From assembly GCA_029834535.1 (NCBI GenBank), contig JAQMWT010000255.1:1-28416 (forward strand): a DNA stretch of 28,416 nucleotides. Reading direction: 5' to 3'. Shown one piece after another: positions 3,896-28,416 of the stretch (the first letter of the stretch is position 1; the number at the start of each line of letters is the position of its first letter). The notes below the pieces were generated by a model. It was not told the DNA's origin and ran no database searches. It saw only the letters and a list, made by a program, of their open reading frames with translations. Position numbers and translations under genes: made by a program. The stretch comes from Chrysophaeum taylorii. Taxonomy: Eukaryota; Sar; Pelagophyceae; Pelagomonadales; Pelagomonadaceae.

Positions 3896-3900
3896 AAATA

Positions 3901-4841: not shown

Positions 4842-4995
4842 GTTTGAAATTTTGGTTCAAAATTATAATCAAATTGAGTTTACCACAACTCTTTTGATAA
4901 GCTAATGCAACAACACTATTGTGGCATTGGTTTGTTAAGCCATATTCATTGAAAAAAGTTCTTAAGCGATAGAGGAATTTTATATGGACCTGTAA

Positions 4996-5851: not shown

Positions 5852-5962
5852 GGCTGGTTTACCGTGTCAATTAATTTTCTTCTCTCCCTTCCCAGCAAGA
5901 TAATAAATTTCACATTCAGATTTAATACTCGAAAACACTTCGTGTTAAAAAAAGTTTCGAAC

Positions 5963-6011
5963 AAAAAAAGGCGCCCCTTTCACAAAGGACGCCTTTCGGT
6001 ATTTTTTTTTA
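5963..6011 (-). terminator. intrinsic terminator after pnp (usable in both directions)
   Basis: A near-perfect inverted repeat (AAAGGCGCCCCTTT at 5967-5980, AAAGGACGCCTTT at 5984-5996) has a 3-base loop. It is flanked by seven A's on the left (5963-5969) and a run of nine T's on the right (about 6003-6011). On the minus strand the stem is followed by a T-run, so it would end pnp transcription, which stops 5-50 bases upstream. Confidence 0.8.
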
Positions 6012-6015
6012 TTGC

Positions 6016-7830
6016 TTAGCCCTTTGCTTCCTCAGGCTTTGCAAAATTGCTTTGCGTGACAATCTGAATTTGCCCGTTTTCTTGTCGACCTCGATCAGCT
6101 TGACCTTGATCTCCTCACCTGCTTCAGTACGCCGTCCATATTCTCCAGACGCTCCCACTTGATTTCAGATATGTGCAACAACCCATCCTTACCAGGCATG
6201 AATTCAATAAAAGCCCAAATGGCATGATCGACTTCACCTTACCATCATAGACTTCACCAACTTCAGGTCATAAGACAGGCCATCTACTTTGATGTCCATC
6301 TGAAACCGTAATACCTTTGTCGGTGCCTGTCACTTTAAAGTCCATATCACCTAAATGATCTTCATCACCAAGGATATCTGATAGAATTGCATATTTTCCA
6401 GATTCAGCATCGGATATCATGCCCATGGCAATTCCCGATACCGGCGATTTTAAAGGTATACCGGCATCCATCATGGCCAGTGCCCCGGCACAAACGGTAG
6501 CCATTGATGAGGAACGTTAGATTCCAAAATATCAGATACTACTCTGATCGTATAAGGATTCTCATCGGCAGGTGGAAGCATTGACTTTAATGCTCTCCAG
6601 GCAAGGTTTCCATGTCCGATCTCCCTTCTTCCGGGTCCCCTGTTGGTGTCTTGCTTCTCCGGTAGAAAAAGCAGGGAAGTTATAGTGCAGGAAGAACTTG
6701 TTGTAACCAGAATGAACCGCGCCGTCAACCATCTGCTCGTCCAGCTTGGTACCTAGGTAACACTGGTCAATGATTGAGTCTCACCTCTGGTAAAGACCGC
6801 AGATCCATGCGCAGATGGTAAGTAATCTACCTCACTCCAAATAGGTCTGATTTCATTGAGTTGCGACCATCCAAGCGAACCCTTGTGTCAAGCACACAAT
6901 TACGAATCGCCTCTTTTTCGACATCATGGTAATACTTACCGATAAGTCCTTCATCATACTCTTCACCTTCAGGCAATTCTGGTAACGCCTCTTTGTACTC
7001 TTCAATGATGGCTTCGAATTTCTCTTTTCTGAGCGCTTTATCACAATACCTTCTTTGGCTACGGCGTAAACTTTGTCATAAGTTTTGGCTTTGATATCTG
7101 CAGCCAATTCCTCATCGTTCACTTCGTGATCGTAAGTTCTTTTCTCTGTTTTACCCGTCGCTTCAGTCAATTCCAACTGAACCGTACAGTGCTCTTTGAT
7201 GACCTCATGAGCTGCTTTGATAGCGCCGATCATCACTTCTTCAGAAACTTCAAGTAACTCACCTTCGACCATCATGATATCATCCTTGGTTCCAGCGATA
7301 ATCATGTCCAATGAAGATCCCTCAAGCTGGGATTTCGTTGGGTTGATGATGTATTGATCGTCCTTGTAAGCGACACGTACTTCAGAGATCGGTCCGCCAA
7401 ATGGAATATCGGACACGGCTAAAGCAGAAGAAGCAGCCAATGCTGCCAGTGCATCAGGCAAATCATCTTCCCCCAGAGAGATCAATGAACTCATGACTTG
7501 TGTTTCAGCATGGTAGTCTCCAGGGAATAGCGGACGCATGCACGGTCTACCAAACGGCAAACCAATACTTCGTTGTCAGACAAACGGCCTTCTCTTTTAA
7601 GAAAGCCTCCAGGAATTTTACCCGCAGCGGCAAATTTCTCCTGATAATCCACTGACATCGGTAGAAAGTCAACACCTTCTCTGGCATCTTTGTTAGAAAC
7701 CACCGTGGCCAATAGCATGGTCTTACCCATTTTCACTACAACCGAACCATCAGCCTGCTTGGCAAGCTTTCCTGTTTCGATCGTAAATGTGACCCACAGC
7801 CACATGAACTTCGTTGGGCTCATCAGCACA
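6016..7830 (-). pseudogene. pnp: polynucleotide phosphorylase, frameshifted, KH domain deleted, start lost
   Basis: PNPase degrades RNA 3' to 5' with phosphate. Reading the minus strand from about 7,800: [54 protein letters not shown] (RNase PH domain 1), a helical linker with [13 protein letters not shown], then in broken frames RNase PH domain 2 ([19 protein letters not shown] and [19 protein letters not shown]). An S1 domain follows ([14 protein letters not shown] in pieces, [20 protein letters not shown]), and the end is RLSRKAILQSL...KPEEAKG with the stop at 6016-6018. Normal length is about 700 residues; about 605 codons remain. The missing part is the KH domain: [10 protein letters not shown] is followed directly at about 6264-6268 by the [11 protein letters not shown] that leads into S1. 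The first roughly 20 codons are not recognisable because the bacterial sequence ends there. Confidence 0.9.
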
Positions 7831-7990
7831 ATAACGATGAATAGAGGAACCAGTTACACGGGGCGGAGATCTTGGAGGCAGTGTGACCGATAGGTCGGAA
7901 TACGTGACTCTTCTCAAGCGGAACAATCGCATTCCATCTCCAAGAAGTACGGTGGCTTGGATGAGAAGGAATCGAGTACTCGTCACATAC
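7790..7990. other. transition from bacterial to eukaryotic-type sequence
   Basis: Recognisable PNPase sequence stops at about 7,790-7,830, roughly 20 codons short of a normal N-terminus, where a start codon, a 5' region and commonly rpsO would be expected. To the right nothing bacterial is recognised and retroelement-type sequence begins within about 900 bases. The exact breakpoint cannot be fixed by eye. No inserted repeat marks it. Confidence 0.55.
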
Positions 7991-8670: not shown

Positions 8671-10952
8671 TCAAAGAGGGATCTCGTGCCATCGTACCTT
8701 ACGGCTTATTTTCACGATGGTGGGATCCTGGTTGATATTCAACGCAGTCTGAGGGCAGAAATTCTCGAAATCCGAAGAGATGGAAGGGTGAGCAACATAA
8801 CGCTCGGCACAGTCGTCCCTCGGTGGCACATATCCATGCAACCAAGGTATCTTGTCCCGCACGAACAATCGTATACCCAGTTCGTCACGATTATCTTCGT
8901 CTTCCGAGAGAACTCTAGATGCAACTCCAGTCACTTCGGTACTTTGCTCCTGCTCCTCCACCCATGCATCTTCAGTGATGACCAAAAAGGAAGGAGGTTC
9001 CATGGGGTCACCAGGGGAATAGCCTTCTGCAGAGAAGCTATCATCATCGCCCCCAACCTCGTCATCGTCATACACGTTGCCCTCCATGAGCTCAGAATAC
9101 TGCACAGTGCAGTAGTCCGCTCGCTTAGTGTCATCCTGATCTTCGCCAAGCACTTCAAGCCACTGAGCGGCGACACCATCATTGTGCTGGCTAGGGTTCG
9201 CTCTCTGAGACTGTTGCCCTCTACCCGGCGGAGCCGTCTGCTGTGCCTGACGAATCAAGTTCATCGTGTTGAGAGCCGTAGTCAGATCCTCCAGGCGCAC
9301 CGAGGTCTGAGCGGTCCGCTGCACTGCGGGCTGCCTTCGGACCACCTGTTGTTGAGTGCCTGCAACCAAACGCTGTGAGTGCCTGCAACCAGCTGCTGTT
9401 GACCTGCACCTGGCACCTGTGCTGCTGTGTAGACCACCTGCGGCTGTTGCACAACGCGCGGCGCTAGCTGAGTCACTGAAGCCTGTCCTGCTGCAGCTAA
9501 AAGCGTCCGTCGGTATTGCTCCTGTCCCTCTGGCGTTGCTGGAAAACCCGCATTCGTCAACGTCTGAGCAGCACGCCTCTTCCTCGAGGGATTGTCCGGC
9601 ACAGGACACACACCGCTGTCGTGGTTAAAACTACCATGCCGGCCGCAACTGAGGCACGTCGTAATTGCTTGACGCGTATGGTTATCTATCCCCTGTGGTA
9701 GCCAGGTTCCAACTCCCGAGTCAGTAACATAACCAACCCGTTGGACTGGCTGCAACTGCTGCCTCTGCTGCTGCTGCTCTCTCCTCATCCGTGGTGCGCG
9801 CTCCTTTCCCCTCTCCTTCTTAATCGCCTCTTCGATGTTGGCAGTAGGGTTGGCTTCCAGAATCTTGGAAATCTGGATGGTCAATTGAATGACATCGTTG
9901 AGGGTGAGAGTAGATGCTTTCATATGCGGTGAGGCCTGAGCAAGTTCGACGCTCGTCCGCAAGCGCTCAGAATTGAGACCAGCAATGAAGTGCGAACGGA
10001 ACGCAGCCGGATCAGTATCGCGACCTGACATTGCTCTCCACTGGCCGAATTTCTGCACCCATCGCGCGATATACTTATTCAATGACAAATTCCCTTGCCG
10101 TAAATTGAACCATTCACGTTCAAGCTCCTCAACCGTCGCCCGAGGTGGACAAGGAAGCTTCGTCGCCTCTTGCATAGCATCCAGACAGTCCTCATCATGC
10201 TGGCGCAACTCTTTCAGTGTGATGGTCCCATCCTTGTATTGTTTCCACATCTGCGGCCGTTCAGCTTCCCATTTGCGATAAGCTCCCACAGGGGCGAGTT
10301 GATACTCGCCTCCAATCACATTCATCGCGATTGAGGGTTTATCAATTTTGCCTTCCATCATACGTCGCAATTGCATCCACCACGCATCCACCTCATCACG
10401 GTCCTTAGTAATTTGCCCATTGAGATGCGAAAATGTGACCCGAGTCATACCAGCAGCTCCTTTCTTGATATGAAGTGTCTCTTCTTCGTCACGAAGACGC
10501 GCCGAACCGGGGTCAGTATGATGGTGCGGGGTAGGCTCCGGTCGACTTCGCGGTGGCTGATCATCGGTCAGTGCCGATACAGCGTCATCATCGTCGGGAG
10601 TAACACGAGTAGCATCCGGAGAGGTTGGCCGTGCCTCTCGAGCATGCGCCCGCATGGATTCCTCCACCATTCGTCGAAGTCGATCGTTGTCGATCCGCTG
10701 CCGCTCCACTTCTGAGCGTTGTTGTTGAGCGTCGCGGCGGGTGCTCTCAAGTTCACGTATGACTTGCTCGATCTGCGACTGGTACATCTCGAATCGTTCG
10801 GCGATGGTCGGCAGAACCTCGGGGTCGATACCCACGCGAAAATCTGTCGCTCTCGTATTCGCGGATGGTGGCCTAGGAGGTGCACTCTCCTCTGGTCCAC
10901 GCATCGCCGCAAACGGTCCGGGATCCGCTCGAGATGACTCCGTAGTATTCAT
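8671..10952 (-). pseudogene. Ty3-like retrotransposon Gag with variant zinc knuckle, frameshifted
   Basis: Gag forms the particle that packages element RNA. The likely start is the ATG at 10950-10952 (MNTTESSRADPG). A predicted coiled coil follows (about residues 48-105 from that Met). Next come an acidic/proline linker, then a retrotrans_gag-type capsid block (EREWFNLRQGNLSLNKYIARW and AFRSHFIAGLNSERLRTSV). A basic Gln-rich stretch leads to a knuckle at 9606-9656 with spacing C-x2-C-x7-H-x4-C, where the normal spacing is C-x2-C-x4-H-x4-C. Near 9,354-9,399 a 23-bp tandem duplication shifts the frame, so two overlapping ORFs result: the first ends at 9282 and the second runs to 8671. The second part is Gln-rich, then very acidic (YDDDEVGGDDDSF). 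Without the duplication the protein would be roughly 750 residues. No protease or RT of the same element was found. The frame is open farther upstream to 11267. Confidence 0.7.
9354..9399. repeat. 23-bp imperfect tandem duplication inside gag
   Basis: Two adjacent 23-base units (9354-9376 and 9377-9399) share the first 15 bases exactly (GAGTGCCTGCAACCA) and differ at about three of the remaining eight. Since 23 is not a multiple of three, the duplication accounts for the change of reading frame between the two gag ORFs. Confidence 0.85.
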
Positions 10953-11310
10953 CGCACGTTCGTACGTAGGGTCGTGCGTACGGGAACGTCGGCTCACCCG
11001 GTTTTGAAGTTGCGTCTGGCGCAACCGTAGCTCCCCCTTCGCCTGCGCGTGGATCCGGAAGGATGTCCACGCTTGGGGGGCTGTCGAGGCTATCAGATGA
11101 TCTTGCCTCTCTTCCGATGCCACTTTCCTCGGCTTCCGGCCGTTGAAAGGGCGTACTGAAAGGTGTCCTTCCAATAGACGCAAATGGAGTCCCTGCACTG
11201 AATCGTTGCAGACGCTCCTGTGCGTCCCGAAACCACGCGGTCGTTCTGCCATTGGCCTCTCTGCCATGACCGCGATTTGCCCGGATAATAGGCTTAATCC
11301 GGACGTTCAC
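10953..11310 (-). CDS. open frame upstream of gag, possible N-terminal part
   Basis: A minus-strand frame different from gag is open from 11310 to 10873 and reads like a low-complexity, charged N-terminal region (FRDAQERLQRFSAGTPF, then Pro/Ser/Glu-rich). It overlaps the gag start at 10952. It may be the true N-terminus of Gag separated by an indel near 10,950-11,000, or a separate small ORF. The gag frame itself is also open here up to 11267 but reads less naturally. No known domain was recognised. Confidence 0.35.
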
Positions 11311-14441: not shown

Positions 14442-16103
14442 TTATGATGTCGAGCGTGTTGTGATGTTGCGCAAAGAAGCTGCATCGGTATCCACAACAT
14501 CAGATGTGTGGTCCAATTCATCCTCGCTATTATCGTCCAGTTCCTTTAACTCTGGAGAAGACGAATTATGATCATCAGAGGATAGGTCGTTAGCAGTGTT
14601 GGTATTGTGCGTAGTCATTGCATCACTCAAGGTGACCAAGGGTGACATGACAGACGAAAGGAAAGACATAGCAGCATCTGGTGTAAGGGCGTGTAGATCC
14701 AATGCAGGAATAACACGATCATGTGCATCAGACATAGCTGTGTGGAGGTGATGAGCTGCTGCGTCGATTTGAACTCGCTGTGCCTCATTATACGTATCTG
14801 GAGGGAGCTGTCCAATAGACGAGATAAGCGACCGAGAAATGATATGGACAAATACAGCAGAGGTCGGTATTATGGTGTTCTGATGCATTTGAAGACTTGA
14901 CAAAATGTTATCTAATAAAGAGACATGTTTAATGTTCTCGGTCACTTGAGTATTAAGGGCTTCGTAGTTTTCTTGCATTTGTGTGAGAGACGTTAGAGCA
15001 AGCGATAGTTGATGTTCTCGTGCCATCAATTGCTGTTCGGTGTTCGTGAGACGTAGGGATAAGGACGGAATATCTTCTTTTAATTGGTGTAAGGATGCAG
15101 CCATATTGTCGTTAGCTTTATCTGGCGTGGGCTCAGCGGGTGGATTATCGATCGGCGCTGGTGACACATCTTCAGAAGGGGTATTATTAGAGAAAGTGTC
15201 AATGACATGGGATGGGTAGCCAACTTGGAACACGTTTTTAAATGCTAGTTGTTTATTAGGAGGAAGTTGGTGAAGGTAGTGTAGCATTGGCGGTGCCGTA
15301 TCGGAAGAAGTTGCGTCAAGTTGATGAGACACATCGTTAACAAAGCGTTCGATGAGCGCGTTAAGTAACTCCTCAGGATTGGTAACTACGCAGGTTTTAT
15401 CTTCCACCGATTGTAACAAATACCAAGCTGCTACAAGAATCTCAAGATTTACACTCGAAATGAAGGGCAGCTGCAGTAAGAGCATAGTGTTAGCGTCAGG
15501 GTTGACGAGAATTTTAGAAGCATCAGCGTTATGGGATGTTGCAGTCTGCATGATTGCCTCTTTGAGCAGTTTGTTAATAGCAATGGACTTGCCAAGGCGG
15601 AGGATTATAGCGCGTATGTGGGCAGCTGGATCATTATAACACGATAGCTGGAAGGGCTGCTGAATATTGCGAATTAACGCTATCCCATGATTCGACAAGT
15701 TGCACATCACACAAATCAACAAAAAGAAAGGGCGCGGTACATCGAAGCAGTGCGATGCATGTTGCTCAGATGCGAGATGATCCTCAATAATTTGGCGAAT
15801 CCTGTCAGTTTTAAGCTCATCTTCAGTACAGATGATGAGCACGAGGGGTGTGCCCGGCATCTCAGTTTGGTTGTCGCACTTTGTACACGCCACATGCACT
15901 TTGACAACCCCTTTAATGGGTTGTTGCAAGCCGAGTAACGTGCGAAATCGGCTGAAGAGCGGAGCTCCAAAGGGATTAGTACATCCATCGGCGATATTTT
16001 GGGTACCGGAAACATGATGTAGACGTGTACGTTTCAACTGTACGTAGTCACGAATACGGAACCAGCGTGTGCTGATAGCTTTGGCCTTAGTCGCACTGTC
16101 GGG
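14442..16103 (-). CDS. copia copy 1: end of RNase H region and about 490-residue C-terminal extension
   Basis: The frame enters from the preceding RT-RNase H ORF through a one-base indel in GGG at 16101-16103. The first roughly 55 codons are the normal copia end: ISTRWFRIRDYVQLKRTRL, then VSGTQNIADGCTNPFG. A usual copia polyprotein stops about here (near 15,929). This one stays open for about 494 more codons. The extension has a CTKC pair just after the RNase H end, a mixed helical region, a Pro-rich linker (about residues 345-365 of the open frame), a predicted coiled coil (about 367-425), and a Ser/Asp/Glu-rich acidic tail before the stop at 14442. There is no predicted membrane segment, so it does not look like an envelope protein. 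I do not recognise the domain. It could be a capsid-like or host-factor-binding module; no function is claimed. Confidence 0.65.
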   Translation of the reverse strand, partial: PDSATKAKAISTRWFRIRDYVQLKRTRLHHVSGTQNIADGCTNPFGAPLFSRFRTLLGLQQPIKGVVKVHVACTKCDNQTEMPGTPLVLIICTEDELKTDRIRQIIEDHLASEQHASHCFDVPRPFFLLICVMCNLSNHGIALIRNIQQPFQLSCYNDPAAHIRAIILRLGKSIAINKLLKEAIMQTATSHNADASKILVNPDANTMLLLQLPFISSVNLEILVAAWYLLQSVEDKTCVVTNPEELLNALIERFVNDVSHQLDATSSDTAPPMLHYLHQLPPNKQLAFKNVFQVGYPSHVIDTFSNNTPSEDVSPAPIDNPPAEPTPDKANDNMAASLHQLKEDIPSLSLRLTNTEQQLMAREHQLSLALTSLTQMQENYEALNTQVTENIKHVSLLDNILSSLQMHQNTIIPTSAVFVHIISRSLISSIGQLPPDTYNEAQRVQIDAAAHHLHTAMSDAHDRVIPALDLHALTPDAAMSFLSSVMSPLVTLSDAMTTHNTNTANDLSSDDHNSSSPELKELDDNSEDELDHTSDVVDTDAASLRNITTRSTS

Positions 16104-18722
16104 ATTTGTTGGAAAGATGAAGAGCAGAGGCAGAGTCTCCCAGTATAGGACTGTTACGTATGAGCGACATGTCCGATGGGAGGGGATTGTCGTGAGCATC
16201 ATAATCTAGTAGCAAGTCATTCCCTGAAGGTTGGCGGAGATAGAAGTGAGGATTTATAGCGAATGCCATTTCTGTTAACAATTTGCGTAACCAGACCACA
16301 TCATCAGCACACATATTAAGGGCGATGAGTTCGCTCTCGTGCGTAGAAGTAGGTGTAATAGGCTGCAACATAGACTTCCAAGTAATGAGACAACCAAGCA
16401 AAAAGATAGCGTAACCGGTTGTAGATTTGCGGTCTTGTTCATAAGAGGGTGCATTATCGGCATCTACGAACGCGGGCAGTGGATCAAAATTACCTGAATT
16501 AACTTGTTCTTTAGTGTAATCCAACATGGTGGCCATGTCAGTACGATTACCGATAAGAAGTCGAAGATGGTCCATTAGAGCGGAAGAACCAGAGTAGTAC
16601 CAGAGGCGAAGATTGCGATTTTCGGGCTTGCGCAAGTAGCGGAGCGTTCCTGTTAGTACTTGAACATGTAGAAATGCTGGATTATGCATTCCTCGAGAAC
16701 AACGACTAAGACTTTGTGATAAATCGGGGCGACAGGCCAATTGGACAAACGTGAGCTTGCCGAGTAGAGTATAGAAGGTGTGAAGGATGAACTTGTCCAT
16801 ATCAGAAGATGGCTCTCCAGTTTTATACGTGGCTGATGGTGACATCGATGTGGAAGTGGGACGTAACTGCATTAAAATGGGGTACTCTTCGAACAATGCA
16901 TCAAGTTTAGCCTGACAGTCCAGTGATATAGAACCATCAGTTGTATGCGTTATGCGCATGCCTAGGAGAGTATGGACTTCCTCGAAGGTGTCGACTGAGT
17001 ATTCCTTTTTCAGAGCTTGCTGGAACTCACGACGTAGAGTTTCCGAAGTGCAAGTAATGACGACGTCGTATACTGAGAGTGTGCAAATTAGAAATGTAGC
17101 GTCAGCTTGGACTTTAGCGTAAATGCATGTGTCTCTTCGAAATCGTGTATAGCCTAATGAATCAAAGAAGCCGTTTATGGTTTGATTCCAAAGGACCGGG
17201 CTCTGACGTAATCCATATAGAGATTTAAGTAGCCTTGGGAGACGACGGCCTTGGTATTTAGTATCTTCGGGATCGAGAAGGTAAATGCCTTGTGGCAGTT
17301 TGACATAGACATGAGGATCGATGGGAGCTTGAACAAAAGCGTTAGGGACGTCGACATGGTAGACTGGAAGTCGCAGATGAGCTGCTAGCGCCAGAACACA
17401 ACGGATGCCAGTAAGCTGTGCCATAGGGCTGAATGTGTTGAAAAAATCGGTGCCCAGAGAGGCTAAGAATCCTCGTAGGACCAGGCGTGCTTTATGTTTA
17501 ATATACTGACCAGCAGCGTTGGTTTTTATACGTAGGACGAGGCGGGTGTCAATAGGTTTTGAGTTGACCATTGGCAGCGCTAGTTTAAAGCAGCCAAACG
17601 CAACAATATCAAAAATCTCCTTGGAGATGGCAGCAACATAAGCTTTGCGATCAGCGTCTGAGAGACCTTTGAGGCAGTTCAACTCATATTCATCAATTTT
17701 GATATCTTTGGCTTGAATCTTGTATTCGTCCGAACCAACCGTGCTGGGGTCATGAGTCGTCGTCAGATGAGTGATTGCGCAAGAAGCGACATTATCGTGC
17801 AGATGAGCGTGATCGGGATCTTCGATGAGTTGAACAACTAGTAGAGGAGCATCACCAAGGTGGGCCTCGATGTAATGTGATTGCACGGTGATATAGTCTT
17901 CGATGGCGGAGAGATGAGGCTCGGAGGCACCATAAGAAGCGTCATTATGATCCAAAATGGAGTGGGGCGTGAACAAAGCATAAACATATTGAGCGGGAGG
18001 AACTTGAAAGGCGTGAGCATGTTCAGAAATTAAATGAACGAGGGCCTGAGGAAGGTGAAAGTCTGCAAGGTTGACGTCGTCGCAGAAGTGAACGTGAGGA
18101 GTATCAGGCGATGGGTGGCTATGGCTCCTATGACACATAACTGAAGAGGACTGTGAGATCGCTTGGTGCACATGGTGATGGAGGGATGGTGTAAATTCCC
18201 CCTCTGGAGGTATAGCCGTCCAGTGGATGCCATGAGCAAGATGAAGGGAGTGGAGGGTGGGGTCGCAGAATGTTATGTACTGCTTGGAGAGGTCATACTT
18301 GAAGTCGGCAAGCGTACCACCTGCGTGTTTATAAGCGGCAACAGTAGGCGAGGCAATACGAGTAAGAACATCCTTGAGATTGGTTCTGCGACGAGGCTGA
18401 GGGTGATGAGGACCACGGGTGAGACGTAGGACATCATGGGAATAGAGAGACCGATAAGATGTTAAAAGTGGCAAAGTGTTGGAAGACACGTCAGATGTAG
18501 GTGTGGTGACGGAAGCGGCGGGTGCAGAAGCAGCTGGAGCACATGCGGGAGCGGGAGAGGGAGCATGGAAATGAGAAGAAGAAGTCCCCCTCTCATGGTC
18601 AGTGTTGGTAGGCATAGCATTCCCCCTCTGCGCCGCATCACTGGGGGTGCTGTGAACAGAGAAGGGAATGTCGGGTGAAGGTGCGGGAGGTGGATGCTGT
18701 TCATAATCAGGAGGAATTTAGA
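16101..18722 (-). pseudogene. copia copy 1: reverse transcriptase and RNase H, RT active site mutated
   Basis: The open frame runs from 18615 (or somewhat upstream, to an indel at about 18,716-18,722) to 16101. After a Pro/Ala-rich linker come the RVT_2 blocks: KTNAAGQYIKHKARLVLRG (about residues 364-382), YHVDVPNAFVQ with the first catalytic Asp (residue 422), LKSLYGLRQSPVLWN, and LSVYDVVI (513-520). In the last motif the first Asp of the DD pair is Tyr (TAC, codon 17068-17070); copy 2 has SVDD in the same place. This should abolish DNA synthesis. RNase H retains its acidic residues: FVDADNAPS (717-724), STHESELIAL (757-766) and GDSASAL (826-832). The frame is otherwise uninterrupted for more than 800 codons. 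An indel at 16101-16103 then separates it from its C-terminal part. Confidence 0.88.
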
Positions 18723-19090
18723 AATAAGATGAGGTAAAGTCAGTTTAGAGGAAACACGGACTTGGCCGTTTTCAGGATTAAGGAAAACATCGGCCAAATG
18801 ATCAACATGGGGTGTTATTAAATGTTTTATAATGTTAGCACCACATAAGTAGATGTAGGGACGACATCGGGGTTCATATTTGTGAAATTCGTTAGGTTCC
18901 AAATGCAGATAACAAACAGAACCAAGAGGTTTGAGGTAGTCCTGTTGGGGAACATTACATTGGTCTAACAATACTTGTTGGGGGCTTGGGACTTTATTGT
19001 AAATACGCTCGAGGGAAACGTTAGGGAGGAGATTATACGATTGGATGGCATGTATAACAGCCCACGGGTAGTGTGGTGCCGGATCTGTTA
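18720..19090 (-). pseudogene. copia copy 1: region between integrase and RT
   Basis: The frame reads YPWAVIHAIQSYNLLPNVSL, SPQQVLLDQCNVPQQDYLKP, LEPNEFHKYEPRCRPYIYLC, then VDHLADVFLNPENGQVRVSS. Each block has a counterpart in copies 2 and 3. Copy 1 reads straight through RPYIYLC, where the other two copies carry a stop codon. The upstream continuation is cut by SINE insertion 1 at 19091. The downstream end joins the RT frame after an indel near 18,716-18,722. Confidence 0.8.
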
Positions 19091-19464
19091 CCCTGACCGC
19101 CGACTGCGGTTGCGATGGAGGACGGTGCCTCATGAATCCTGAGCCTTGCGAGGGCATCCGCCCTCCCGGCGTAGGTTGGCACCTATTCGCCTCCCGGGCG
19201 GGCCGGTTGGCAGCCGGAACGTTCGCAGTGGGACGGGGTATGGCCGGGGGGCGAAGACGAAAGGTCATCGACGAGTTGGTTGTCAGTCACATCGCGGTCT
19301 CCTCGTCGCATGGCGACAAGCTTGATGGTCACTCTCCGCCGACCGACCTTTCGGCGCTCCTCGTCTACAGGCCCGTGATTCCGGACTGGCACCTGTCGGT
19401 CCGGCCTGGCTCCCATGCTCGGGAGAGGTCTGAAGTTAGTTAGTTAGTTAGTTAGGATCTGTTA
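19081..19464 (+). mobile_element. SINE-like insertion 1 with target-site duplication
   Basis: The body at 19091-19454 (364 bp) is flanked by a perfect 10-base duplication GGATCTGTTA (19081-19090 and 19455-19464). It ends in a run of GTTA/TTAG repeats. It is inserted opposite to the copia coding strand, and copia coding sequence resumes on both sides. It shares near-identical sequence with insertions 2 and 3. The tail and target-site duplication indicate target-primed reverse transcription. No clear pol III A and B boxes were found, so it could also be a short 3' fragment of a LINE. Confidence 0.82.
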
Positions 19465-20032
19465 GGGGGTGACCTTTATAGGGTACAATAAGCATATGCC
19501 GGAGTCGTGTAGACGCGGCAGTGGCTATGTGACCAACAGCGGCTTCTACTTCATGATTAAAGACATGCAAGTAAGGGGGGAAAGCGGACATGTTAATACC
19601 ATGTTCCACACGAAAGGTGGTTGTAACATGCTGAGATAAATAGGGTTTAAAGGAATCACAATAGATTTGTTTAAGTTGTACATGAACATAAGTAGAGCAA
19701 AAATTGCGGACAAACTCAAGGGCGTTACAAAATTCGCTGGAGTTAGTGCGACGACAAAAGTACACTAACAGAAATTTAGAAATGAGACACTTGAAAACAA
19801 TGATATGTCGAAAGGATCCCATTCCGAGAGCACAGATACGCAACCACCGTCACATGCCCAGGCTTCACCAGGTTGACAAATTTTTTCGAATGATGGTTGC
19901 TTGGTAAGGTGATGTGGATGAGGAAAGCGTTTTTTATGAATCGTACAATCCACACAGAACTTACGGTAGGGTACGTCAGATGGGTGGTGTCCAGGACTGG
20001 TAATAACCTGAACAGCTTTTGTAGCTTGAGAT
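19465..20032 (-). pseudogene. copia copy 1: integrase core
   Basis: Integrase inserts the cDNA into host DNA. The segment reads SDVPYRKFCVDCTIHKKRF with the two Cys of the HHCC zinc motif, then PGEAWACDGG with the first catalytic Asp. A one-base change in CCC at 19818-19820 shifts the frame, after which HIIVFKCLISKFLLVYF, IYCDSFKPYLSQHV (second Asp) and FNHEVEAAVGHI (Glu) follow. All three acidic residues are therefore present. The segment lies between SINE insertions 1 and 2; the first half of the zinc motif is on the far side of insertion 2. Confidence 0.82.
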
Positions 20033-20405
20033 TCACTAGTCGCCGACCGCATGGTTGCGATGGAGGACGGTGCCTCATGAATCCTGAGCCTTGCGAGGGC
20101 ATCCGCCCTCCCGGCGTAGGTTGGCACCTATTCGCCTCTCGGGCGGGCCGGTTGGCAGCCGGAACGTTCGCAGTGGGACGGGGTATGGCCGGGGGGCGCA
20201 GACGGAAGGTTATCGACGAGTTGATTGTCAGTCACATCGCGGTCTCCTCGTCGCATGGCGACAAGCTTGATGATCACTCTCCGCCGACCCACCTTTCGGC
20301 GCTCCTCGTCTACAGGCCCGTGATTCCGGACTGGCTCCTGTCGGTCCGGCCTGGCTCCCATGCTCGGGAGAGGTCTGAAGTTAGTTAGTTAGTTAGAATC
20401 ACTAG
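20033..20405 (+). mobile_element. SINE-like insertion 2 with target-site duplication
   Basis: The body at about 20040-20398 (359 bp) has nearly the same sequence as insertion 1, including its 5' part (GGTTGCGATGGAGGACGGTG) and its TTAG-repeat tail. The 7-base sequence TCACTAG occurs at 20033-20039 and 20399-20405; the next base outward differs between the sides, so the duplication may have been one or two bases longer. It separates the His and Cys halves of the copia copy 1 integrase zinc motif. Confidence 0.8.
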
Positions 20406-20777
20406 AATGGTGGATGTTGTAAAAATTGGTGGCTCGTTGTTGCGCATCTCGAAATGCAAGGGTGCCTCTGGCATAGACTTTCTTATCGAAGGGTGCATGC
20501 TTTTCATGGAGCTGTCTTGGCGTTATAAGAGGAATGTGTTTTTCATTAGTAGGAGATGATGTACCTGCGGATGAGGTGTTAGAGAGGAAGACCTGAGCTA
20601 CTGAATCGAGATGAAAAGATGGAAGTTCGTGGTTAGAGGCAGGATTATCACAACATGAAAGTTTTTTATTGGAGATGTAGAACATTGTAATGGAACTCTG
20701 GTGTAATAATAAGGATGTATCTGTTGGGAATATATTTGTGAAGAAAGTTGACCTATAGTTTTTGGTTAGAGATGCAT
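20406..20777 (-). pseudogene. copia copy 1: N-terminal integrase region
   Basis: The frame contains KHAPFDKKVYARGTLAFRDA and RATNFYNIHHSSDS, which align with HIPAHPIPRKSFAHGSTEYL and RANRFHRVHHCPDN of copy 2 and supply the His pair of the zinc motif. Upstream it reads a Ser/Thr-rich linker (PDHASLTKNYRSTFF) that resumes beyond SINE insertion 3 at 21,099 and stays open to about 21,135, where a stop codon ends it. No methyltransferase sequence remains in this copy. Confidence 0.75.
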
Positions 20778-21098
20778 GATCAGGGTCTTGCGAGGGCATC
20801 CGCCCTCCCGGCGCAGGTTGGCACCTAGTCGCCTCCCGGGCGGGCCGGTTGGCAGCCGGAACGTTCGCAGTGGGACGGGGTATGGCCGGGGTGCGAAGAC
20901 GGAAGGTTATCGACGAGTTGGTTGTCAGTCACATCGCGGTCTCCTCGTCGCATGGCGACAAGCTTGATGGTCACTCTCCGCCGACCGACCTTTCGGCGCT
21001 CCTCGTCTACAGGCCCGTGATTCCGGACTGGCTCCTGTCGGTCCGGCCTGGCTCCCATGCTCGGGAGAGGTCTGAAGTTAGTTAGTTAGATCAGGGTC
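20778..21098 (+). mobile_element. SINE-like insertion 3, 5'-truncated, with target-site duplication
   Basis: The body at 20788-21088 (301 bp) begins inside the family at TTGCGAGGGCATCCG, about 55 bases later than insertions 1 and 2, and ends in the same TTAG-repeat tail. A perfect 10-base duplication GATCAGGGTC flanks it (20778-20787 and 21089-21098). A variable 5' end with a constant 3' tail is the usual product of incomplete target-primed reverse transcription. Confidence 0.85.
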
Positions 21099-21144: not shown

Positions 21145-21612
21145 GTGACACGTCGTACTATCGTCCACCTTCAAATTATAACGTCAAAGGTACCAGCTTC
21201 GATCGTCCTGTCTACTCACCCTCCTCTAACCGCAATGCATGCTCTAATATGTCTCTTATGGACCGGGCTACTTATCAAGTTGATCGGTCTTCGCCACCTG
21301 TTTGGTAAGTTACAGGAAGCGAATCCCAACCCCTCTACCGATTATAAAATGGTACAGGAGGAAATGAAAAGCTTACTGAGTACCCTCTGGACAACCGCTT
21401 CTCAAGCTTCGACACAGTCCTTATATCCTGACGAAGCCACCCAAGTTCATCTCTACTTATCTCATGCTATCCTGAGTCCGCAACAGCTACTCTACAACCA
21501 ACTCAACACTCCCCAACACGACATGCTCAAGATTTTCGGCGCTGAATGTTACCTTCTATTGGAGGCTCACGAACACCACAAGTGGGAACCGTGCCGTCGC
21601 AAATACTTATAG
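21145..21612 (+). pseudogene. copia copy 3: unassigned N-terminal part plus post-integrase block
   Basis: An open frame of 155 codons. The first roughly 105 residues (with NPSTDYKMVQEEMKSLLSTL) have no counterpart in the other copies; they might be gag-derived or unrelated sequence. From about residue 108 the frame matches the copy 2 post-integrase region (LSPQQLLYNQLNTPQHDMLK, CYLLLEAHEHHKWEPCRRKY). It ends at a TAG exactly where copy 1 reads through, then continues in the same frame with LCCANAQNPLVSPRVDHIAD and NPENGQIRVST. Confidence 0.6.
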
Positions 21613-21703
21613 CTCTGTTGCGCCAACGCGCAAAACCCGCTCGTCTCCCCACGCGTCGACCATATCGCTGACGTCGTCCTCAACCCTGAAAACGGACAAA
21701 TTC

Positions 21704-21961
21704 GTGTTTCGACCCAGTGGTATCGACCCCGAAGTCCCGGTGGTCGAAGGCGAGATCATGTCACATGAAGGATGTGTCAACATGCAGCTAGAAGCCACTG
21801 ATGACGTGTGTCATGCAACTCTTACGGCTGCTGTTGACGACGATGAAGTCGAGGAGGATGTATTGAGTGACAGACCTCCTCCTCAGCCACCTCCAGATGA
21901 AGAAGTGAAAAAAACACCAGAAATGGAGATGGAGGCGACTGCTAAGGAGCTGCTATCTTAG
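21704..21961 (+). CDS. acidic, proline-rich open frame in copia copy 3
   Basis: The frame reads an acidic segment (GIDPEVPVVEGEIMSHEG, DDDEVEEDVLSDRPPPQPPP, then a Lys/Glu-rich end) and stops at 21959-21961. It is in a different frame from the preceding copia block and starts with a non-ATG codon. In copy 2 the same place, after the NPENGQIRVS block, holds an unrelated Pro-rich linker. It may be a linker from another subfamily or captured sequence. No domain was recognised. Confidence 0.3.
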   Translation: MFRPSGIDPEVPVVEGEIMSHEGCVNMQLEATDDVCHATLTAAVDDDEVEEDVLSDRPPPQPPPDEEVKKTPEMEMEATAKELLS

Positions 21962-21998
21962 CACGCCTCCTTGGTTTGGATACCCAGCACCTACACCT

Positions 21999-22350
21999 TT
22001 GTCGTCGTCTACTTTGCTGGCGCTGGAGGATCAGGCCCCCAACGTACTGGCTCGCCCTGGATTCTCTGCCTCTGACATACCATATCGCGACTTATGCACC
22101 GACTGCATCGCACACAACAAGCGCCACCCGCACAAGCATTTCAATGCGACCAAGCCTTCTTTTGAGCAAACTCACAAAGCCGGCGAAGTCTGGGCGTGCG
22201 ACGGCGGCTATGTGACCATCCCATCCGAATGGGGAGGCTTCGCCCATATCATCGTCTTCAAGGAACTCATTTCGAAATTTCTCTTGGTGTACTTCACACG
22301 CACCACTAACGCCACGGAGTTCACTCGAGCTCTGGATTTTGTGTATTTCT
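21999..22350 (+). pseudogene. copia copy 3: integrase zinc region and start of the core
   Basis: The frame matches copy 2 integrase with only a few changes: ARPGFSASDIPYRDLCTDC with the Cys pair, KAGEVWACDGGYVTIPSEWG with the first catalytic Asp, then HIIVFKELISKFLLVYF and RTTNATEFTRALDF. It stops matching at about 22,344, where minus-strand copy 2 sequence begins. The second Asp and the Glu are absent, so no active integrase is encoded. Confidence 0.82.
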
Positions 22351-23079
22351 GTAGCGAGATGTACTCGCGGATTTTAAACCATCTGGTCGCCGTTACTTTG
22401 GATCGAGAAGACCCATCTGAGTTATTAGAGGTGTGACCAGCGGCAGCATTGTCAGACAAGAGAGGTAGGCTTCTGATGAAGCGCATATCTTCAGCAATTG
22501 GGTTGTCATTGTCATCGAAGTCAACAGGATCAGCGGTGTTCTCACCATTAGCATTGTTGACGTAGAAGGTGGGGTTGACGACAAGGGAGAGTTCCAACAG
22601 CAGCTTGCGTAGCCAAACAGCTTCATCAGCACAAATACGGAGGGCAATCAACTCAGCTTCGTGAGTTGAGCAGGAGACAATCGGTTGAAGTTTGCTTTTC
22701 CAACCAATACGGCAGTTGAAAAGATAGAAGACAAACCCGGTGGTAGATTTCCTATCTTCCTGTGCTAAGGAAGGGGCATTGTCAGCGTCAACCATGGCAA
22801 CTAAGGGATCAAACTGTCCAGTAGATACATCCTGCGGTTGGTAGTCGACCACAGTGGATAGATCAATTCGATTAGCGGAGACAGTGCGAAGGTGAGCTTC
22901 AATGGCATTACCTTTAGGATGGAACCAGAGGCGAAGTGAGCGGTTTTCCGGCTTCTTGAGGTAGCGAAGCAAATGCTCTAGCATTTGGACGTGAACATAC
23001 GTGGGTGCATGCATACCACGCGAACATCTGCCCAAGGCTTGCGAGAAGTCAGGTCTGCAGGCAACTTGCATGAACACAG
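22345..23079 (-). pseudogene. copia copy 2: RNase H
   Basis: The frame starts after a one-base insertion near 23,079 (the RT frame ends in a different frame). Conserved blocks: FMQVACRPDFSQALGRCSRG, YLKKPENRSLRLWF, AMVDADNAPSLAQ (catalytic Asp pair), EDRKSTTGFVFYLF, WKSKLQPIVSCSTHEAELIA (Glu), LLSDNAAA (Asp) and TRWFKIREYISLQ. Next to this last block, at about 22,344, the sequence changes into the reverse complement of integrase from copy 3, so the normal end and anything after RNase H are missing. Confidence 0.88.
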
Positions 23080-24790
23080 CTTGCCAAGGAGGGTGGCAAA
23101 GTGCGAATTGATGTACAACTCTGTTTCAGAGCTGGGAGTGCCATCTTCATACTTGAAGGACGATGACATAGGATATTCAAGCGGGGTCAGTTGCTGCAAC
23201 ACTGGGTGATCAGCGAAGAGTTCATCCAGCTTGGCTTGCATATCCAGAGAAATGGAACCGTCAGATGTGCGACACACACGCATGCATAGGACGGTATGGA
23301 CAGGTTCAAACTGCTCTACAGCATACCGTTTGTGGAGGGCATCTTGTAACTCGGTACGAAGAGGGTCATCATTGGACACAATAACAATGTCGTCTACAGA
23401 CAGACTGCATACGACGAACTTTGCATGTGCGGATACTCGAGCATATAGGCAAGAGTCCGAATGCACGCGTTTGTAGCCAAGGCTACGGAAGAAGCCGGCT
23501 ATCTCTTTGTTCAAAAGAGATGGTGATTGCCGAAGTCCATGAAGTGACTTCGGCCGTTTCGGTAGACGTCGGCCCTTGTACTTAGCGTCGTCGGGGTCGA
23601 TAAGCTTGATGCCGTCTGGTAACTGAACATAGACGTTGGCATCAATGTCAGACTGAACGAAGGCGTTCGGGACGTCTGCATGGTAGACAGGCAATTGCTT
23701 GTATGCGGCAATAGCTAGTAGTACCCGGATTGCGGTCATGGTGGCCATGGGGCTGAAGGTGCCAAAGAAATCGGCGCCAAGAGATGCTAGGAAGCCACGT
23801 AGCACGAGGCGAGCCTTGTGCTTAACGTATTTGCCTGCAGAGTCTGTTTTAATCTTCAGCACCATCTTGCTGTCAATAGGACGAAAGACACCGTCGGGTA
23901 AGGAAAGTTTGAAGCAGCCGAAGCCGATAATGTCGTGGAGTTCCTTGGCGATGGCCTTGAGGTACGCGTGCCTGTTTTCATGCGACAAACCGTGGAGGCA
24001 CTTGAGTTTATATTCGTCAATGGAAACGTCAGCTTCTTGGACCTTATATTCGCCAGGACCAACAGTGTCTGGTGAATTATAGTTTAGCGACGTTGCGGTC
24101 GAGGCAGTGTGTGCAACTTCGGGATAAGCGGAAACAGCGTCGGTAGGAGTAGTAGGGGCAGATTCCAGTTGGATATGGATAGTAGGGTCGGTACGTAAGA
24201 CCTGGGTGATAAACTCTGTAGAGACCAGAAGGTATTCCTCCAAGTCAGCCAGAGATGCAGAAGTAGCGCCAAACTCGGATGAGTTGTGATCAATAAAGCT
24301 GGTCGGCGCCAGGTACGTAAGTGCATATTGTAAGGAAGAAGTGCCGAAGGCAGCAGCGTGTTCAGTGAACGCAGATAAAAGGGGCTGAGGAATAGGGCAC
24401 GTAGGTGAACCATCCGCAGTTAAAAAGGTTGCAGCTGGGATGCTGGATGCGCACTTGGCGTGGGCGAAGTAACCATCGACGTGCGGGTAGCGGGCAAGTA
24501 AGTCAGTGCGCAACGGGAGAAGAAGACGAGCTAACAACGCATGTTCCCCCTCGGAGCAGATAGCAGACCAGAGGAGACCACCATTGAGATGAAGGGCGGA
24601 GAGGGCGGGAGACTTGAACGTAAGAAAGTGGTGGCGAAGATCCCAGCGGAAATCGGCGAGTTTGCCACCAGCGGCTTTGTAAGCACCAATAGTAGAAGCT
24701 TGTAACCGGGCTCGGATAGTTTTCATAGAAGTGGCCTTGCGAGTGTTAGGCTGTTTGGAACCTGGAACAAGAATGAGGTCGTGCAAAAAG
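23080..24790 (-). pseudogene. copia copy 2: reverse transcriptase (RVT_2)
   Basis: This copies element RNA into cDNA. The frame is joined to the upstream linker by an indel in five A's (24785-24789). An N-terminal part related to copy 1 (TIGAYKAAGGKLADFRWDL) leads into RT: KTDSAGKYVKHKARLVLRGF, YHADVPNAFVQSDI with the first Asp, LHGLRQSPSLLNKEIAGFF, and CSLSVDDIVIVSND with the Asp pair at 23389-23394. The canonical copia YVDD is SVDD here. HTVLCMRVCRTSDGSISLDM follows. The frame is open from there to the RNase H shift at about 23,079. Catalytic residues are intact, unlike in copy 1. Confidence 0.88.
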
Positions 24791-25184
24791 GTCTTTGTAA
24801 GAAGGAAGCAAGGGCGGCGGTGACATAGAGCCAGATTCGTCGGCGGTAGCGTCAGAAGAGGGAGAAGAGGCCGGAGTAGGGGACGAAGAAGGAGGAGCTG
24901 AAGGAGGTGGGGAGTGCCCCCTCGGAGGATGAGGAGTCCTTGTCCCTCTCTGAATGACATGGTCTTGGATAGCGGCGTGGGGTGTGAGCGAGAAAGGCGC
25001 GGGAGGAGCGTGATGCGGAGGAGCAAGTTCAGGATCAGGAGTAGGATGCTGAAGCATGTAGAGGAATTGCAGCTTGGACGAAACACGAATTTGTCCGTTT
25101 TCAGGGTTGAGGACGACGTCAGCGAGATGGTCGACGCGTGGGGAGACGAGCGGGTTTTGCGCGTTGGCGCAACAGAGATATAAA
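24746..25184 (-). CDS. copia copy 2: linker between integrase and RT
   Basis: The frame is the same as integrase, but a TAA (25,185-25,189) interrupts it. It begins YLYLCCANAQNPLVSPRVDH, then LADVVLNPENGQIRVSS, shared with the other copies. Next comes a long Pro/Ser/Ala-rich stretch (SPPPSAPPSSSPTPASSPSS) and a short LLPSYKDLF block that also occurs in copy 1. It ends in the shift at 24785-24789. A flexible linker between integrase and RT is a normal part of copia polyproteins. Confidence 0.7.
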
Positions 25185-25186
25185 TA

Positions 25187-26266
25187 TTAGAAATATTCGC
25201 GGCGGCACGGTTCCCACTTGTGGTGTTCATGGGGCTCCAATAGAAGGTAACATTCAGCGCCAAAAATCTCGAGCATATCATGTTGGGGAGTGTTGAGTTG
25301 GTTGTAGAGTAGCTGTTGCGGACTCAGGATAGCATGATGAATGCGCTCGAGCGTGGCGTTCGGGAGAAGGTTGTAGCTTTGAACGGTGTGTATCACCGCC
25401 CACGGAAACATGATGGCTGGTTCCACGATCTTGGCGCCACGATAGTGAGCAGTAAGGAGAGAACGAAGGCGAGTTGAGGAGGCGGAGGCGATGAAACCGA
25501 TGGCAGACTCAACTTCAAAGTTAAAGTGGTGCATGTACGGCGGGAAGGCAATGAGTTGAATGCCCTTATCGACGCGGTACGGGGAGGTAATGTGCTGGCT
25601 AAAGTAGGGCTTGAAGGCATCGGAGTAGAGGGTGCGCATGTGCACGTTGAGTTGTGTACGACAAAAGTCATACACAAAATCCAGAGCTTGAGTGAACTCC
25701 GTGGCGTTGGTGGTGCGTGTAAAGTACACCAAGAGAAATTTCGAAATGAGTTCCTTGAAGACGATGATATGTGTGAAGCCTCCCCATTCGGATGGGATGG
25801 TCACATAGCCGCCGTCGCACGCCCAGACTTCGCCGGCTTTGTGAGTTTGCTCAAAAGAAGGCTTGGTCGCATTGAAATGCTTGTGCGGGTGGCGCTTGTT
25901 GTGTGCGATGCAGTCGGTGCATAAGTCGCGATATGGTATGTCAGAGGCAGAGAATCCAGGGCGAGCCAGTACGTTGGGGGCCTTGGCAGCGACGTTGTCG
26001 GGGCAGTGGTGCACCCGGTGGAAGCGATTGGCACGTTCTTTGGCATTGAGATATTCGGTAGATCCGTGTGCGAAGGACTTGCGAGGAATGGGATGAGCGG
26101 GAATATGACGTTTGCGCCGAACATCGAACTTGAGTTCGGTGTCCAAGGCAGGGGGAGGCGGTGCGTCGTTATCCTGGTGCGCAGCAGGGTCACTTGGAGG
26201 TGCATCCTCATCATCACGAGTAACGAGAGTATCTTCGTAGGACGAAGATATATAGTTTAACGACAT
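25187..26266 (-). CDS. copia copy 2: integrase
   Basis: An open frame of 359 codons. An N-terminal acidic and Pro-rich part (residues 11-45) is followed by the zinc motif (H83, H87, C116, C119 in FHRVHH and LCTDC). The catalytic core has D151 (WACDGGYV), D216 (YSDAFKPYFSQ) and a Glu at 251 or 253 (NFEVESAIGFI). The spacing fits the D,D-35-E pattern. A post-core region follows (LSPQQLLYNQLNTPQHDML) and the frame ends at CRREYF and a stop near 25,187, where copy 1 reads on. The upstream end overlaps another frame at about 26,214-26,266, so a one-base indel in a TA-rich stretch probably separates it from the region before it. Domain calls are firm. Confidence 0.9.
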   Translation of the reverse strand: MSLNYISSSYEDTLVTRDDEDAPPSDPAAHQDNDAPPPPALDTELKFDVRRKRHIPAHPIPRKSFAHGSTEYLNAKERANRFHRVHHCPDNVAAKAPNVLARPGFSASDIPYRDLCTDCIAHNKRHPHKHFNATKPSFEQTHKAGEVWACDGGYVTIPSEWGGFTHIIVFKELISKFLLVYFTRTTNATEFTQALDFVYDFCRTQLNVHMRTLYSDAFKPYFSQHITSPYRVDKGIQLIAFPPYMHHFNFEVESAIGFIASASSTRLRSLLTAHYRGAKIVEPAIMFPWAVIHTVQSYNLLPNATLERIHHAILSPQQLLYNQLNTPQHDMLEIFGAECYLLLEPHEHHKWEPCRREYF

Positions 26267-27330
26267 TTAAGAGGAAGGATTCCTGTTGTTTGGTGTGGTT
26301 GTTAGCACGAATCAACTCCGGTCGAGTGGGGTAGCGTAATTTCCTGTTGCGGGGGTCGAGTAAAATAATATTGGCGTACCCTCGGACGGTGGGCAATGGA
26401 GCAAGCATGGAGTGGATTTTAGAGCCGAGTTTGCGGTCACTTCCACGAAGGTACCCTATATAGCGACTATGAGATAAGTGGTGATCTTCCAGAGCAAAAT
26501 GAGAGTCCTTGTAGTCGAAAGAGTTGGCGGTGGCCTTGTAGGTAAGGCAGCCAGGCATCACAAGAGAGCATCTGGACAAGAGTTTTTGTATGGCGGTGCC
26601 ATAGGTGGCAGCGGAGCCAACTTGGGGAAGGGCTTGGACTATCCACAAGTAACCCATAAACGGCTCCAAATATATGGACCTGTCCCGGTCGCGGGGAATG
26701 TCGGAAGCAGTGAACGTATACGTGCTTCCAAACGCGTCAATAGAAGCATGATATTTGGTGGTGGCGTTCTCTATGGTGAGGTTGCCGTCAGAGTGGTGGA
26801 CACCAGTTAAGAAGTGGGAGTTGTATGATGTTGATGAGGTTGTGAGTAGTAACCTGTGTGACGGTTGGTTGGTTTCGAAAACGGTCATGTAATAGGACAC
26901 AGGAGTGGGTGAGTTAGTGTGTAAGCTGGCAAACAATTTATAGAGGATTGTAAAAACCTTGTCGTGTATAGGATGTGTTGCATTGGGTAGTGGCTCCATA
27001 GAGGAGCGTTCAAAGCACAACGGATGATAAGTACACTCGGATTGAACAGAGTGAGTACGTTGTTCGTGAGCCTGTTGTGAGTGAAGGCGAAGCAGTAACA
27101 TATTGAGGGATTCAAGGTCAGCCATAGTAAGCTGAGCAGAACCTGTGCGAGAGTAAGGTGCAAACGTTTTAGGAACGGGGATATATGGAGGATCGGGGAA
27201 CACCCGGATCCAGTCTTTGGATACGTGTTTAGGTAGCCAAAGGCGCTTGGGAATAGCTTGTAGATCATCCACGATCTTTAGGAAGGGGCGTGGATGGAGG
27301 ATAGGCCACGACAATAATTTAATTGGTCCA
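26245..27330 (-). CDS. copia copy 2: region between methyltransferase and integrase, family unknown
   Basis: The frame is open from 27314 to 26214, 366 codons. The first part (FLKIVDDLQAIPKRLWLPKH, YIPVPKTFAPYSRTGSAQLT, then MADLESLNMLLLRL) comes directly after methyltransferase motif VIII and may be its target-recognition region and C-terminal end. The later part (HFLTGVHHSDGNLTIENATT, then SDIPRDRDRSIYLEPFMGY) occupies the place where copia protease and pre-integrase sequence is expected. I see no DSG or DTG in it. The end (LLDPRNRKLRYPTRPELIRA) leads into integrase after an indel. No family is claimed for the middle. Confidence 0.5.
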
Positions 27331-27339
27331 GTCTATACC

Positions 27340-27911
27340 TGCGTGCGATGCATATCTATCTTTCTCTAGATTGGTAGTCGCCATAGAGGTAGGTCGGGAA
27401 CCTATCAACAACATCGACACACACGGTAATCAAGCGTTGCATGAATAAGATTGGCCACTGTGATGTGGTCTTGATGACAGTACTTATGTGGAGGCGTCAT
27501 CTCAGCCAGTAGTACCAAGGGCTGGAGTAGCTTGATGACAGACAACATGCTGTCGAAAAGAGAATCGTCCAGCAGGCTGTGTAAGTCTTCTGTCTTATGC
27601 TGTTTTAGTAAATTCCTGTTTGTGCAGGGAGGAGTGATCTCAATTATATCACAATAGAATGTGCGCCTTTCCTCTGGTGAGATTAGGTGAAGATGGTTAA
27701 TAAAGGCGGGGAGAGATTCAAATAATAGTACAGTAGGGAAACGGTGGCGTAACATACGAACAAGCGTATCATCAGACTCAACAACAACTTTTACGTTGAT
27801 ATTTGAGCCTAAGTCATTAGTGGCGTGAGACAGGAACGCCGGAGTTGACAAACCAGAACAAAGTAACATGACAGAAGGTTTGCGGAGATTGGACTCTTGT
27901 GAGAGAGACAC
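27340..27911 (-). pseudogene. cytosine-5 DNA methyltransferase region in copia copy 2, frameshifted
   Basis: C5-methyltransferases transfer methyl from S-adenosylmethionine to cytosine C5 via a covalent Cys adduct. The frame from 27911 holds the family's motifs in order: motif I-like VMLLCSGLSTPAFL (about residues 14-27), motif II-like VVVESD, motif IV CDIIEITPPCTN with the catalytic Cys of PPC at codon 27624-27626, a helix (LLDDSLFDSMLSVIKLLQP), and motif VI-like VLLAEMTP, where the usual ENV is AEM-T. LDYRV then precedes a frame change in an AC/GT dinucleotide run (27415-27425). Motif VIII is readable in the new frame (LYGDYQSRER, Q-x-R-x-R at 27359-27373). Motifs IX and X are not securely seen. 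The frame is interrupted upstream by a TGA at 27927-27929. The call rests on motif order rather than a database hit. Confidence 0.72.
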
Positions 27912-27926
27912 TAGGCGTGAAAGTAG

Positions 27927-28280
27927 TCAAGTTAATGGCTGAGTATTGTGCTGAACAAGCTTGTTCTGTTTCCGAAGATTGAGAACCAAATGGCGAATCC
28001 ACGGGCGATCTGGTAAAACTCTTTGGAGTAGGTAGTTGTAGTATGCCAGTAGATCCCTGTTTTCATGGTATCGCTTGAGGGGAAATGCGAGAGAGCGAAG
28101 TTCCAGCTGCTTGTCGCGCGCAATGTTGTAAGTGAGACAAGGGAGGGCAGGTAAATTAGCTGCTATGTAGTGTATGGGGATACGTGCATCTTCGTCTATG
28201 CGGCTCGTGACAGCGCTGAGCTTTGGCTCAGCTCGATCGTTGAACACAGTGGTCAGGTTCGTCTGGTTCCACTCGAGCAT
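27927..28280 (-). CDS. ORF upstream of the methyltransferase, same frame, unknown family
   Basis: An open frame of 117 codons from an ATG at 28278-28280 to a TGA at 27927-27929. It is in the same frame as the methyltransferase that follows. It looks protein-like (LTTVFNDRAEPKLSAVTSRI, YYNYLLQRVLPDRPWIRHLV). It could be the end of a gag region or an N-terminal extension of the methyltransferase. If the TGA is real, only recoding would join them. No known domain was recognised and no CCHC knuckle is present. Confidence 0.45.
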   Translation of the reverse strand: MLEWNQTNLTTVFNDRAEPKLSAVTSRIDEDARIPIHYIAANLPALPCLTYNIARDKQLELRSLAFPLKRYHENRDLLAYYNYLLQRVLPDRPWIRHLVLNLRKQNKLVQHNTQPLT

Positions 28281-28416
28281 ACTCAGGATAGGAGATGTCG
28301 GTCATGCACTGGCTGAAGACATAAAGCGAAGTCGATCTTAACATAGCCAACTTGTGGATGATCTGGCCCTGCAGACGAGGAAGATATTATCCCTCATTTC
28401 GCGTCCAGTGAAGAGT
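28281..28416. other. right edge; short inverted match to 7.99-8.03 kb
   Basis: No complete gene is seen. About 45 bases near 28,361-28,405 match the reverse complement of 7,988-8,030 (shared cores CCCTGCAGACGAGGA and CCCTCATTTCGCG, with small gaps). A plus-strand frame (VDDLALQTRKILSLISRP) runs off the edge. Confidence 0.5.

Follow-up and report, generated by a model that had tools for sequence, protein, structure and literature searches.

Copia retrotransposons of Chrysophaeum taylorii with a diverged C5-cytosine methyltransferase domain upstream of integrase

DNA methyltransferases (DNMTs) have been reported in LINE, DIRS and Gypsy retrotransposons, as described in the accessible text of de Mendoza 2018 (PMC5890265). 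According to the same portions of that paper, the activity of a retrotransposon-encoded DNMT has a precedent in SymbioDIRS-Dnmt3, which methylates CG in yeast, and Copia elements of Symbiodinium are given without a DNMT domain. A 2025 article (PMC12344493), in the sections available, refers in passing and without detail to DNMT3 of 'LTR Copia and DIRS', citing the 2018 paper. Beyond this mention, no Copia element with a methyltransferase (MTase) is described in the literature covered, which comprised partial texts and had subscription journals and Repbase outside its range, and the accessible parts of PMC9998398 and PMC6338049 contain no such element. Here we describe a Copia LTR lineage in the pelagophyte Chrysophaeum taylorii with a pol polyprotein that starts with a C5-MTase domain, for which we propose access by stop codon readthrough and a role in DNA methylation. 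We consider this statement as a whole to be likely, with the identity of the domain weighing most in it. Among the nearest described systems is KnitGypsy-Dnmt3 of Klebsormidium nitens, an LTR element whose DNMT, in the available text of PMC5890265, likewise forms part of the pol polyprotein and is under purifying selection; however, that element is a Gypsy with a Dnmt3-type domain by tree, whereas the present one is a Copia with a domain so diverged that Pfam does not match it directly. SymbioDIRS-Dnmt3 and SymbioLINE-Dnmt of Symbiodinium share with it, as far as the same text goes, the many copies and the conserved catalytic residues, but belong to the DIRS and LINE classes.

The window, by which we mean the whole stretch of 28,416 nucleotides analysed (contig JAQMWT010000255.1), holds one such element on its minus strand, with the order gag-protease, UGA, MTase-linker-integrase-reverse transcriptase (RT)-RNase H, of which the stretch from the gag-protease end to RT reads downwards from 28301. 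The tail of the gag-protease frame (27927..28301), named by eye from motif and position, ends at an in-frame UGA (27929-27927); the protease motif FDSCAT falls outside the window for this copy and was read in copy L029, whose gag-protease frame gave no Pfam protease match. The diverged C5-MTase domain, assigned by sequence comparison, occupies 26990..27926 and is followed by a linker with no Pfam match (26267..26989), the integrase (25187..26266; below the Pfam cut-offs at rve E 0.0013, SH3_retrovirus E 0.012), the RT frame (22978..25323; RVT_2 E 7e-37, 127.8 bits) and the RNase H region frame (22208..23125), placed by the motif STHEAELIA at 22669. Gag, protease and RNase H parts went unrecognised by Pfam and are named from motif and position only. 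Of the Copia integrase-RT-RNase H that the original prediction called clear, the Copia-type RT is clear, the integrase is weak and RNase H is recognised by motif. In four further copies of the same family, hereafter family A, the protease-integrase-RT-RNase H motif order was also read (L029, L032, L034, L036), with protease and RNase H by motif only and integrase under the Pfam cut-off.

Within the domain, reading of the sequence and a motif survey place the motif I region, VMLLCSGLSTPAFLSHA, at 27822..27872, and the motif II region, VVVESDD, lies at 27768..27788. The Pro-Pro-Cys of motif IV (TPPC) follows at 27624..27632 by hand-counted coordinates, with the predicted catalytic Cys codon at 27626-27624, then the motif VI region, LLAEMTPP, at 27489..27512 with its Glu codon at 27503-27501, and motif VIII, QSRER, at 27359..27373. 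The positions originally given for TPPC, AEMTPP and QSRER are thus correct and motifs I, IV, VI and VIII occur in the predicted order, but here motif VIII is not read in the frame of the others. The window copy is broken: its open reading frames 27926-27405 and 27332-26214 lie in the same frame, but the sequence that separates them (27404 to 27333), where QSRER is located, is shifted and contains stops. A tblastn alignment spans both in that single frame, and relatives have a continuous MTase frame across the break point. The window lacks the 5′ end of the element. The copy on C311 has a 326-base direct repeat, a candidate long terminal repeat, whose two units are 90.8% identical and about 11.3 kb apart, with an adjoining inverted piece (88.9%); the repeat is seen again in other family A loci, either upstream of gag or close to it.

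Several other features share the contig. At 21462-22346 lie two inverted fragments, 98.4% and 91.3% identical to portions of the integrase region of family A, and a repeat of about 300 bases occurs three times in one orientation at 19098-21089 (97-98% identical). A 674-aa frame at 9282-11306 resembles a Gypsy-type gag by eye and has no Pfam match. Pieces of bacterial-type genes lie at 3108-7853, among them an M23 peptidase (3108-3602), a sigma-70 region 3 (5101-5445) and a polynucleotide phosphorylase-like RNase_PH domain (6853-7853); their presence beside retroelements could reflect transfer, contamination or a mis-joined contig.

The arrangement recurs throughout the genome. With a 173-aa frame as query against the 70.8 Mb assembly (697 contigs), we found at least 150 domain matches at 77-100% identity (150 scored of 858 candidates, hence a lower bound), 22 of which contain an internal stop by our own count. 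Open frames reach 1375 aa (L036) and 1691 aa (C42), and some copies read as one frame from the MTase past integrase and into RT, among them L034 with the MTase, the integrase and the start of RT. Starting instead from RT, among the best 45 of 150 RT matches (themselves drawn from 1609 candidates), 24 have an MTase match upstream on the same strand when paired by eye, 23 of them at a spacing of about 3.6-4.7 kb and one at 5.9 kb. The remaining 21 comprise three too close to the contig start and 18 without an MTase among the matches listed; six of these 18 were inspected, and three contain the MTase and three are shifted or rearranged. The recurrence of this order in many copies speaks against a host gene that merely adjoins the element, and we reject that reading.

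The domain is homologous to C5-MTases, although the window family can be tied to the Pfam family PF00145 only through relatives and not directly. The family search proposed at the outset gave no PF00145 match for the window reading frames, even at E 10, nor for other family A frames or the family B frame (see below). Two outside relatives supply the connection: P0004 (269 aa, ENA contig, 38%) exceeds the cut-off of 22 bits (E 6.1e-5, 23.0 bits) and P0003 (392 aa, MMETSP transcript, 41%) falls under it (E 4.4e-4, 20.2 bits). Both keep the Pro-Cys, the motif VI Glu and QxRxR, and P0004 reads PCQ where the window reads PCT. A third family of the same genome, C, matches PF00145 above the cut-off (E 5e-7 for L043, 1.1e-9 for L004). 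A profile of A, B, P0003 and P0004 matches that of family C with a probability of 90.5 and E 1.3e-6; the alignment covers 284 columns and brings motifs I, II, IV, VI and VIII of the two profiles into register. The score of this match was 55.9, against at most 24.0 for two reversed and 23.4 for 60 shuffled controls, all 62 of which had E values above 0.04. A chance likeness of motifs in an unrelated linker domain would fit the missing Pfam match of the window frames and the comparison of the family A profile alone with C, which at E 0.039 is no better than the controls; the PF00145 matches of the relatives and the combined profile match, far above 62 controls, lead us to reject chance motifs, and we regard an unrelated linker domain as highly improbable.

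Structural comparisons are weak. Profile searches of the PDB ranked C5-MTases first at E 0.075 to 0.28; P0004 alone had no match there, and A7 matched a proteasome chain alone (E 0.094). The predicted structure is poor (pLDDT 56); strands and helices alternate in it, and the best Foldseek matches, the DNMT3A-DNMT3L and DNMT3A2/3B3 complexes, are weak and level with unrelated Rossmann folds. The central claim of the original prediction, a Copia element with a C5-MTase ahead of integrase, is borne out by the genome copies, the profile comparison and the selection described below, with weak further support from the predicted fold. We hold the identity as a C5-MTase domain, together with purifying selection on it, with very high confidence.

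In this one genome the MTase domain precedes integrase in at least three Copia families, namely A (that of the window copy), B and C. Family B was recovered with P0004 as query and is about 50% identical to A in the MTase domain; C has LPCQ and ENV motifs and its domain lies between protease and integrase; the family C query gave 79 matches in the genome, with some places split. The relative P0003 is transcribed, as its MMETSP origin indicates. Further searches for relatives returned little: a profile search with A4 found P0003 and P0004 again and nothing else, a protein search with the family C query found nothing among the best 8000 candidates scored, and scans of viral contigs with P0003, A7 and A2 confirmed no viral relative. 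A further minus-strand Copia element lies in the window itself (14442-20928); it is assigned to family B by eye from the likeness of its text at 20389-20928 to L046, with RT at 16087-18717 (RVT_2 E 1e-39) and no MTase match by tblastn. All three families and the outside relatives keep the domain, ahead of integrase wherever this is visible, and A and B are near saturation at synonymous sites. The capture looks old and still under selection. A single old acquisition, after which the MTase became a standard pol domain of the whole Copia lineage, with a leaky UGA setting its dose in A and B and new copies entering the genome pre-methylated, is a more speculative extension that we find possible but doubtful.

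What marks a DNMT-carrying retrotransposon is present here: the MTase lies in the element's own coding region, in many copies and under purifying selection. The dN/dS of the MTase is 0.087 in 20 family A copies, which were largely chosen by likeness to the window protein so that dN is lowered, 0.035 in four B copies, which are less biased given that the query was only 36-40% like its hits, and 0.125 in six C copies; the set leaves aside L027 (register) and L016 and L018 (stops). For ten family A copies with long flanks, values were 0.113 for the MTase (10 usable), 0.290 for the integrase core (8) and 0.016 for RT (5). All 29 family A loci keep motif I and the Glu of motif VI, 28 keep PCTN (L032 has PCKN) and 27 have motif VIII in frame. 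The four motifs are found in all five B copies, and in C each is found in nine of nine copies except motif VIII (eight of nine), whose QxRxR is only partly kept in that family. Conservation of motifs and sequence to such a degree argues that the domain is in use by the Copia element, and that several diverged families have kept it implies a role in the life cycle of the element. That role need not be catalytic: the fold might be kept while catalysis is lost or secondary, so that the domain would act in a DNMT3L-like accessory fashion, binding nucleic acid or chromatin to direct packaging or integration. Such a role, which we consider unlikely, would suit the departures from the usual motifs, namely AEM in A (lacking the Asn of ENV) and MEM in B for motif VI and PCT for PCQ in motif IV, as well as the weak Foldseek matches to the DNMT3A-DNMT3L and DNMT3A2/3B3 complexes, but it sits poorly with the Cys, Glu and QxRxR conserved across the families, P0003 and P0004, and with the PCQ of P0004. 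DNA methylation is the predicted activity that we favour, with moderate confidence.

The in-frame UGA preceding the domain suggests how it could be expressed. It stands 18 codons before motif I in 25 of the 28 distinct family A copies (absent from L027, L036 and L037), followed by C in 23 of these 25 and by CUA in 21; UGA-CUA is a context that favours readthrough. In all four B copies examined (L046, L047, L048, L050) UGA-C occurs 21 codons before motif I, and the family C frame L043 has no stop at the corresponding place. That the UGA is kept in A and B despite differences at 88% of synonymous sites (one A-B pair) suggests a function, and its position in frame ahead of the MTase suggests readthrough. 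In Tca2 of Candida albicans a UGA likewise separates gag from pol, and a potential pseudoknot is described there (PMC2194720, accessible text). In the present elements, folding of five stretches 3′ of the UGA gave no common signal, with z from -1.93 (window) to +1.96.

The host genome has a DNMT5-like and a DNMT2-like gene. The former is a 2086-aa frame (L002 and L060, C621) with C5-MTase, SNF2 and helicase domains, which we take to be the DNMT5 build; next to the latter, a light-harvesting protein gene was noted by eye (L001). The genome also contains a RuBisCO large subunit gene, presumably of the red type, which together with the light-harvesting protein marks the host as probably an ochrophyte-type alga. 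Profile comparisons of A7 with the DNMT5-like (E 0.0044) and DNMT2-like (E 0.015) genes single out neither as the source of the domain and leave descent from either unsupported, and family C has no profile match to the DNMT5-like gene.

We propose low-rate readthrough of the UGA, by which the MTase would be made as part of pol and enter the particle together with integrase and RT. It would methylate the fresh double-stranded cDNA of the element, or the target DNA, either ahead of integration or while this proceeds. Maintenance of the mark could fall to the DNMT5-like enzyme of the host, and the mark may protect the new copy or determine the state of its chromatin. That self-methylation of cDNA would be the main role is a tentative proposal, which we rate somewhat below an even chance. 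The copies themselves carry at most a weak CpG footprint, which is no proof of methylation. Among family A copies, CG sites show 0.072 C/T differences per site and other contexts 0.062-0.082, but for G/A the values are 0.091 and 0.045-0.077, respectively, and in B and C the CG values are at or within the range of other contexts. The two elements of the window have CpG observed/expected values of 0.94 and 0.96, compared with 1.26 and 1.46 for two host gene loci. CpG decay in the copies is thus weak and inconsistent, with no clear footprint; brief marks or other sequence contexts may be compatible with this result. An RNA substrate, either genomic RNA or the tRNA primer, would fit the lack of a clear CpG footprint and has parallels, in the sections available, in DNMT2, a C5-MTase relative that acts on RNA (PMC12344493), and in the discussion of RNA as a possible substrate of the LINE form (PMC5890265). 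However, the match of A7 to the host DNMT2-like gene, which extends over most of the length, shows no special likeness among C5-MTases, and we judge an RNA substrate unlikely, slightly less probable than an accessory role.

With this Copia lineage, the few known captures of DNA methyltransferases extend to one more superfamily of retroelements and, it appears, to a further lineage of algae. Self-methylation of cDNA by a retrotransposon also becomes testable, in a fairly small genome of 71 Mb whose DNMT5-like enzyme could keep the marks.
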